Assembly: GCA_947372355.1 (NCBI GenBank)
Contig: CANBTI010000011.1
Span: forward strand, 1-58,173
Origin: Bdellovibrionales bacterium
GTDB lineage: Bacteria > Bdellovibrionota > UBA1018 > CAIMNF01
Reading direction: 5' to 3'
Length of the DNA: 58,173 nucleotides
A program made the translations under genes and the position numbers. The notes below the pieces were generated by a model. The model was not told the DNA's origin, did not search any database, and worked only from the letters and a program-made list of their open reading frames with translations. Positions 24,299 to 25,368 of the stretch are shown here, piece after piece. Each line of letters opens with the position of its first letter. The stretch's first letter is position 1.

Positions 24299-24326
24299 TT
24301 GCATTAATTACGCGATGCGATATTAT
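24299..24326 (+). promoter_or_regulatory. Promoter of the c-di-GMP riboswitch RNA
   Basis: TTGCAT (24299-24304), a 16-bp spacer and TATTAT (24321-24326) form a sigma70-like promoter on the plus strand. Transcription would start near 24333, about 100 nt before the aptamer. It is divergent from the DUF4097-like gene. Confidence 0.5.
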
Positions 24327-24429
24327 CTAAATATGAAGAAAACTTAACGGTTCATTCAGAAGGTTCGAGCGCTAAGGATAGCACTCATGAAGAGGCGATC
24401 ATTATCCCCGTAATGATCTCTTTGAAAAA

Positions 24430-24512
24430 GGCAACCCGATCGAAAGGTCGGAGACGCAAAACCAACGGTACTAAGGAACTCTATCCCCGGGTTCTACGTA
24501 GGCTGGGCTGCC
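24430..24512 (+). promoter_or_regulatory. Cyclic-di-GMP-I (GEMM) riboswitch aptamer
   Basis: The sequence follows the GEMM-I consensus. GGCAACC opens the element. A stem CCGATC/GGTCGG capped by a GAAA tetraloop comes next, then the conserved GACGCAAAACC junction. A second stem follows (GAACTC/GGGTTC) with an adjacent CTAAGG segment like the tetraloop receptor, and GTAGGCTGGGCTGCC closes the outer stem. Class I aptamers bind c-di-GMP at the three-way junction. The next gene, queE, is separated from it by a terminator. Confidence 0.85.
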
Positions 24513-24570
24513 AAAGGACGACATGTTTTTTAAAGAGGGGTTGGACACTCACAACCCCCTTCTTCGGTTT

Positions 24571-24608
24571 AGGCGTGAAGCATCAAGATGATGGTTCACG
24601 CCTTTTTT
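24571..24608 (+). terminator. Terminator of the riboswitch RNA
   Basis: AGGCGTGAA and TTCACGCCT form a nine-pair stem, with an inner CATCA/TGATG stem, followed by six T residues. It would end the RNA before queE, either always or under control of the aptamer. Confidence 0.85.
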
Positions 24609-24693
24609 ATTTGGCCAAAGGAAGCTCTGGCGAGCTGGACTTGGCGACAACAATCATTTGCCACCTCCGCCACTATGTGGCATGGAACATGAC

Positions 24694-25368
24694 ATGGCAT
24701 TCACCGGACTCCTCATCACTGAAATTTTTTATTCCCTCCAGGGCGAAACATCCCTCATTGGAGTGCCATTCGTATTCATTCGTCTTACCGGCTGTAATCT
24801 CAGATGCACTTACTGTGATTCCGTATACAGCTTTAAAGGTGGAAAGAAGATGAGTTTTGAAGAAGTAATGGCTGAAGTAAAAAAATACAAAGTGAAGCAT
24901 GTACTCATGACCGGTGGTGAACCCCTACTCCAACGAAACACTCTTGAATTTATTGATCTCTTAAAAACTGAAGGCTACCAAGTGAGCGTGGAGACTCATG
25001 GCGAAGTTTCTGTAGAAGAAGCTTCAAAAAAAGCTCGCATCATCATGGACATCAAAACACCTGGATCTGGAATGAGCCGAGGTGGATACATCAAAAATTT
25101 TCCATTTCTAAAACCAACCGACGAAGTGAAATTTGTGATCACCTCCAAGGATGATTATTCATGGGCACGCGATTTAGTGAAAAGTGGAACCATCCCCACA
25201 GAAGAAATTTTATTCTCTCCAGCGATGCTTGCTTTAAATTCACCGGGTAAATACGAAGGTATGGAACCTAGAACGCTTGCCGATTTAATTGTTGGCGATC
25301 AATTGCCGGTACGCTTTCAGTGGCAACTCCATAAATTACTTTGGGGCGCAGACACTAAGGGTGTTTGA
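24694..25368 (+). CDS. queE: 7-carboxy-7-deazaguanine synthase
   Basis: The product (224 residues from the ATG at 24694) is a small radical SAM enzyme. Cys34, Cys38 and Cys41 in the motif CNLRCTYC bind the iron-sulfur cluster, and the N-terminal ITEIFYSLQGE and VLMTGGEPLL motifs are diagnostic for QueE. It rearranges carboxy-tetrahydropterin to CDG on the route to queuosine. An ATG at 24682 is an alternative start; 24694 is preferred because GGAAC lies just upstream. It lies 86 bp after the riboswitch terminator. The last 14 nt overlap the convergent gene. The queuosine-inserting enzyme Tgt is encoded 9 kb away. Confidence 0.93.
   Translation: MAFTGLLITEIFYSLQGETSLIGVPFVFIRLTGCNLRCTYCDSVYSFKGGKKMSFEEVMAEVKKYKVKHVLMTGGEPLLQRNTLEFIDLLKTEGYQVSVETHGEVSVEEASKKARIIMDIKTPGSGMSRGGYIKNFPFLKPTDEVKFVITSKDDYSWARDLVKSGTIPTEEILFSPAMLALNSPGKYEGMEPRTLADLIVGDQLPVRFQWQLHKLLWGADTKGV

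Follow-up and report, generated by a model that had tools for sequence, protein, structure and literature searches.

A c-di-GMP-I aptamer within a predicted transcription unit of its own

The window, i.e. the complete stretch of 58,173 nucleotides analysed here, was found to carry a c-di-GMP-I (GEMM-I) riboswitch aptamer, which matched the full RF01051 model (positions 1–87) with a score of 60.0 bits against a gathering score of 35 bits (E-value of 2.9e-9 for the window), thereby bearing out the identity assigned in a first-pass annotation of this DNA. A scan of the whole window returned two gathering-level Rfam matches, namely a tRNA and RF01051, while a sensitive scan of the 521 bases around the aptamer identified no family besides RF01051. 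The aptamer is single-copy in its own genome (2.73 Mb, 125 contigs searched), and the GAAA-capped stem, the GACGCAAAACC junction and the CTAAGG element to which the annotation had drawn attention were all located within it. Additionally, the position that we take to be position 20 (Vc2 G20 numbering) is a G, within AAAGGC, and this residue is present in every copy compared except one divergent copy of family f9. The cGAMP subclass is marked by A20 (PMC6456294), and cGAMP is an unlikely ligand in place of c-di-GMP, as G20 is present here. The genome itself encodes c-di-GMP machinery (four GGDEF and five to six PilZ domains), and the RNA is predicted to bind c-di-GMP. A chance match to GEMM-I was ruled out by the 60-bit score together with the conserved flanks. 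The locus is almost certainly that of a genuine merRNA-type GEMM-I RNA.

Table 1. Features of the RNA unit and the adjacent gene (window coordinates).
Feature	Position	Strand	Basis
Promoter: TTGCAT (-35), 16-nt spacer containing ACGCGATGCG, TATTAT (-10)	24299–24326	+	Recurs in relatives; strict pattern unique in own genome
Predicted transcript, ~275 nt	24333–24608	+	Start inferred from -10, end from terminator
5' hairpin H1, AAGGA at loop	24367–24386	+	Fold; A(N)GGA in relatives
P0 5' strand GAAGAGG, closing the domain with 24559–24565	24389–24395	+	Helix pairing across 35 genomes
First extra hairpin, GATCATTA-TCCCCG-TAATGATC, C-rich loop	24397–24418	+	Fold, alignment
Strand X: P1 5' side (24420–24424), alternatively anti-P1 5' side (24418–24429)	24418–24429	+	Fold, alignment, pairing counts
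c-di-GMP-I (GEMM-I) riboswitch aptamer, G at position taken as G20	24420–24515	+	RF01051, 60.0 bits
P1 3' strand CAAAG	24512–24516	+	P1 pairing, changes on both sides
Strand Y (TTTTTTAAAGAG), anti-P1 partner of X	24526–24537	+	Anti-P1 pairing across 35 genomes
Second extra (3') hairpin GGGGTTG/CAACCCC; in relatives GGGGGGTCC/GGACCCCC	24537–24558	+	Fold, alignment
P0 3' strand CTTCTTC	24559–24565	+	P0 pairing across 35 genomes
Intrinsic terminator AGGCGTGAA/TTCACGCCT: nine pairs, 15-nt loop, six T	24571–24608	+	Sequence, fold
queE (7-carboxy-7-deazaguanine synthase), next gene	24694–25368	+	Name from first-pass annotation; radical-SAM motif

Both boundaries proposed for the unit, the promoter and the nine-pair terminator with its six T residues, were retrieved at their positions (Table 1), the latter by sequence as well as by fold. 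At the place of the promoter, TTG-N19/20-TANNNT was observed in 30 of 37 class relatives, where shuffles gave an expectation of 2.8; with GCG or GCA ahead of the -10, the pattern was present in 22 relatives (0.12 expected). A stricter form occurs a single time in the entire own genome, i.e. at this promoter. A simple sigma-70 scan did not call it (TTGCAT matches TTGACA at three of six positions), and no FliA-type promoter (TTAAG-N16-CCGATA, PMC3627812) was seen upstream of the window RNA. The terminator was missed by the scanner because its loop is 15 nt long; stem-loops are present at this place in most relatives. The predicted fold of the transcript is 4.3 standard deviations more stable than those of its shuffles (z-score -4.3), and no open reading frame shared with relatives lies within the unit, just as the annotation had placed no regulated gene inside it. 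As a separate observation, ACGCNNTGCGNTA (24310–24322) recurs with at most two mismatches at 32 places in the window (17.6 expected, no shuffle as high) and may perhaps represent a lineage-specific extended -10 element.

A closed domain with two mutually exclusive helices

To define the architecture of the RNA in the window's class, 36 flanks were read side by side, of which 35 were aligned. The domain runs, from 5' to 3', through H1, GAAGAGG, a hairpin, strand X, the aptamer, the P1 3' strand CAAAGG, a variable hairpin, strand Y, a GC-rich hairpin and CCUCUUC to the terminator. The two extra hairpins to which the first-pass annotation could assign no role are real, both being formed in the predicted fold of the transcript, and they are not orphan features, since the near-invariant GAAGAGG/CCUCUUC helix (P0) closes a domain that contains both of them.

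Three long-range helices are kept in the 35 genomes. P0 is paired in 99.6% of cells, with one compensatory change (G-C to A-U in G007), and P1 in 97.6%, with double changes at two pairs; anti-P1 is paired in 94.8%, with C-G to U-A changes at one pair in the window and G007 and at another pair in G001. Shuffled partners rarely or never attained the observed pairing of any of the three, and sliding the register reduced it to 46–74% (P0 and anti-P1) or 49–80% (P0 and P1), although such pair-count controls leave some effect of relatedness among the 35 genomes. As P0 and anti-P1 vary so little within the class, only modest covariation is seen, with double changes at two pairs of anti-P1 and at one of P0.

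Strand X has two possible partners, namely the 3' strand of P1 and a distal copy of that strand (strand Y, forming anti-P1), and simultaneous pairing with both is impossible. In folding energies computed without tertiary contacts and ligand, the enforced anti-P1 fold was more stable than the enforced P1 fold in 34 of 35 sequences, by a mean of 5.6 +/- 3.2 kcal/mol, and by 4.6 kcal/mol in the window RNA. The Kd of 1 nM quoted for c-di-GMP (PMC3627812) corresponds to approximately 12–13 kcal/mol, which exceeds the advantage of anti-P1 and would therefore be enough to flip the fold. We consider the window RNA probably bistable. It had been suggested in the first-pass annotation that the RNA could act as a sponge rather than a switch; the conserved exchange between P1 and anti-P1 argues against this, as it represents the anatomy of a switch, for which a pure sponge would have no need.

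The P3 loop of the aptamer reads (A/U)CCCC in nearly all genomes of families f1–f5. Additionally, several f1 genomes (loci among L116, L118, L119, L120 and L124–L126) have a second hairpin loop of the form ACCCC(G/A), and the first extra hairpin of the window carries a UCCCCG loop. These recurrent CCCC apical loops possibly constitute a C-rich seed or a protein site.

Distribution in the phylum and relation to merRNA

Across the phylum, 242 genomes at least 90% complete were searched and 110 of them have exactly one RF01051 copy; at lower ranks, this was the case in 42 of 58 genomes of the class, 40 of 55 of the order and all 13 of the family. No RF01051 match was obtained in the remaining 15 of the 55 order genomes, some of which may reflect assembly gaps. 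One of the positive genomes of the phylum, which we take to be that of Bdellovibrio bacteriovorus HD100, has its sole match at 1,073,868–1,073,951 (minus strand). This match falls within the published coordinates of merRNA (1,073,741–1,074,185, minus strand; PMC3627812), which identifies the window RNA as what corresponds to merRNA in a different class. Together with the promoter, the terminator and the lack of a shared frame in the unit, this substantiates the merRNA-like organisation originally claimed for the locus. The 2013 study (Karunker et al.) reported no conservation of merRNA outside Bdellovibrio (PMC3627812). In attack-phase HD100, merRNA was measured at 2.0 million RPKM (PMC3627812). 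Other studies report that merRNA is lower in stator mutants (PMC11323537) and that it has the strongest native promoter tested (PMC12622784).

Both RNAs are single-copy, intergenic GEMM-I RNAs with their own promoter and terminator and seemingly no conventional regulated gene, although queE closely follows the window RNA with no promoter-like site of its own, and in both P1 is accompanied by a long-range helix (X-Y) joining the 5' flank of P1 to a downstream strand. In contrast, merRNA of HD100 is longer (445 nt, against approximately 275 nt predicted here), with a longer leader, has other neighbours, has an X-Y helix with only two pairs in common with P1 and bears a micro-ORF (MEGTNTYKDWFHSP) absent from the window; furthermore, its expression is known, while that of the window RNA is predicted. 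A synteny search identified queE as the gene that follows the RNA in 34 genomes, which belong to four families (f1, f4, f5 and f6), while in the Bdellovibrio-type families the RNA is flanked instead by genes for an Mrp-like ATPase and an MltD-like protein (named by inspection). Since the neighbours differ between classes, it is the RNA unit that is kept for itself and not a particular gene pair.

A conserved micro-ORF in the Bdellovibrio family

X-Y duplex scores were compared with shuffles across all families. For the Bdellovibrio family, the X-Y helix (UCCUUCC/GGAAGGA) showed 91.8% pairing; four sequences have A-U in place of C-G, and one has U-A in place of C-G. Since this helix has only two pairs in common with P1, its exchange with P1 is less exclusive than that seen in the class of the window. 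Strand Y of this family has the sequence AUGGAAGGA, at which a short frame begins that ends in DWFHSP-stop, with the terminator directly behind it. The micro-ORF, of the form MEG..(IM)DWFHSP-stop or with RFHSP or FYSP endings, lies 3' of the aptamer (loci L173, which is HD100 merRNA, L174–L200 and L233–L254). Among 30 distinct spacers between the start and the conserved end, 28 are in frame (30, 33, 36, 39, 42, 45 or 54 nt; out of frame 25 and 44 nt) and none of these contains an in-frame stop. The start codon sits on the anti-P1 strand, and in some genera the ATG is found just behind GGAAGGA, itself strand Y. This suggests that the RNA of the Bdellovibrio family may act as a translational riboswitch for a micropeptide, and such a conserved, presumably translated micro-ORF would run counter to the 2013 report of no conserved ORF in merRNA (PMC3627812).

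In family f14 (L201–L203), a strong Shine-Dalgarno sequence (AAGGAGG) and an ATG, approximately 25–40 nt 3' of the aptamer, open proline-rich micro-ORFs (MDITPIFRPPYPPP.., MGFNCCLHPPYSPQ), which possibly represent a second micropeptide version.

Proposed function and alternative explanations

On balance, we favour a free-standing, merRNA-type c-di-GMP-binding RNA that operates as a bistable switch. At low c-di-GMP the anti-P1 fold would dominate and leave the aptamer open, while c-di-GMP would stabilise P1 and thereby release strand Y. If present in large amounts, as in the Bdellovibrio attack phase (an abundance extrapolated from one species), the RNA would also buffer c-di-GMP with a threshold. 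The least certain steps are that the two folds expose different strands, such exposure rather than ligand capture alone constituting the signal, and that the exposed strand may target an mRNA or an RNA-binding protein in trans; an output in trans rather than in cis seems slightly the better supposition. More tentatively, merRNA may be an ancient, phylum-wide switch whose function is conformational change and not ligand storage, controlling translation of a micropeptide in the Bdellovibrio family and acting as a trans-acting non-coding RNA in the window's class.

The published proposal is that merRNA constitutes a c-di-GMP reservoir (PMC3627812); as a passive store it would release the ligand upon degradation or refolding, with the alternative pairing merely tuning affinity. 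This agrees with the abundance of merRNA in HD100, which about equals that of all mRNA in attack phase and is 5000-fold lower in growth phase (PMC3627812), and with a window unit that has no ORF common to relatives. However, the aptamer alone would suffice for a pure sponge, whereas the 35 genomes additionally conserve P0, anti-P1, the hairpin with A(N)GGA and the C-rich loops, and the anti-P1 strand overlaps the start of the micro-ORF in the Bdellovibrio family, making a purely passive role rather doubtful.

The RNA might alternatively regulate queE in cis, by means of a leaky terminator and read-through from the RNA promoter in amounts altered by c-di-GMP. The adjacency of queE in the 34 genomes is consistent with this, as is the gap between terminator and queE, usually 24–85 nt in relatives with a located terminator, in which no TTG-N16-18-TANNNT was present except in G001, where another gene intervenes; among the RNA bodies of the relatives scanned, a single such site occurred. 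A QueE search of the genome contigs returned mainly distant QueE proteins. Read-through of the terminator from the promoter of the RNA may thus feed queE and would be the simplest source of its mRNA, therefore the strict independence of queE is not established: the position behind the terminator given in the first-pass annotation is correct, while the separation that this implied is doubtful, as the gap is short and devoid of promoter-like sites across relatives. Control by c-di-GMP is another matter, since the terminator has one and the same structure in the two predicted folds and such control is therefore not predicted. Moreover, no anti-terminator for the final terminator was found (inspection by eye yielded only genome-specific complementarity between H1 and the terminator in G002 and G009), the Bdellovibrio-type families lack queE beside the RNA, and we know of no link between queuosine and c-di-GMP. 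Regulation of queE in cis is accordingly considered unlikely.

A CsrA-titrating RNA gated by c-di-GMP would account for the A(N)GGA motif at the loop of H1, which is found in 26 of 36 class genomes against 8.0 expected, and the genome does possess a csrA gene. Conversely, RNAs of the CsrB/RsmZ type have many GGA-bearing loops, whereas here, leaving the aptamer aside, a single conserved hairpin loop with A(N)GGA is usual, and 10 of the 36 genomes lack even this, so that titration of CsrA appears quite improbable. A translational micropeptide riboswitch in the window's class, with an ORF too small or non-canonical to be seen, is similarly very hard to sustain: while the (D)WFHSP frame of the Bdellovibrio family starts at strand Y and, in the window, AAAGGACGAC is closely followed by an ATG (24523), the 22-codon frame that this ATG opens (24523–24591) is absent from the close relative G007, and the 3' parts of the RNAs of families f1–f5 contain no conserved start codon, frame or peptide. 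A mechanically called ORF (24413–24853) was discarded, as it overlaps the aptamer and, out of frame, queE.

Comparison with known systems

The bistable switch favoured here resembles other RF01051 riboswitches in its full-length aptamer match, GAAA loop and G20, but it apparently lacks a cis gene in the usual sense, its aptamer is enclosed by P0 and opposed by the conserved anti-P1 strand, and its P3 loop is conserved in the class. Rli55 of Listeria and EutX of Enterococcus are likewise ligand-controlled, self-terminated RNAs whose output is not a cis gene; their ligand is cobalamin and their partner the antiterminator EutV, which they sequester, while the window RNA is not known to have such a partner.

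Proposals for the role of merRNA, which ranks among the most abundant RNAs described from a predatory bacterium, have been guesswork since 2013. The present analysis adds its phylum-wide distribution as a single-copy gene, two conserved folds that exclude one another and, in the Bdellovibrio version, a conserved micro-ORF located at the strand that is switched. Its role thereby becomes testable through the flipping of X-Y by c-di-GMP, production of the peptide and the contacts of the released strand.

GEMM-I matches in family f9 (L228–L232) are weak (32–45 bits), and in L228 the aptamer is followed by a terminator-like stretch, a ribosome-binding site and an ATG, this copy probably being an ordinary cis riboswitch, unlike the others. 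In several of the f5 metagenome-assembled genomes (L139, L140, L142, L145, L148 and L151), a common block, visible in the 300 nt at the contig ends nearest the 5' side of the RNA, marks the point 0.4–0.5 kb upstream where the contig breaks off; its reverse complement (TCTTTGAAAAC...) presumably resembles the leader of an rRNA operon; the RNA may be divergent from such an operon in these genomes.
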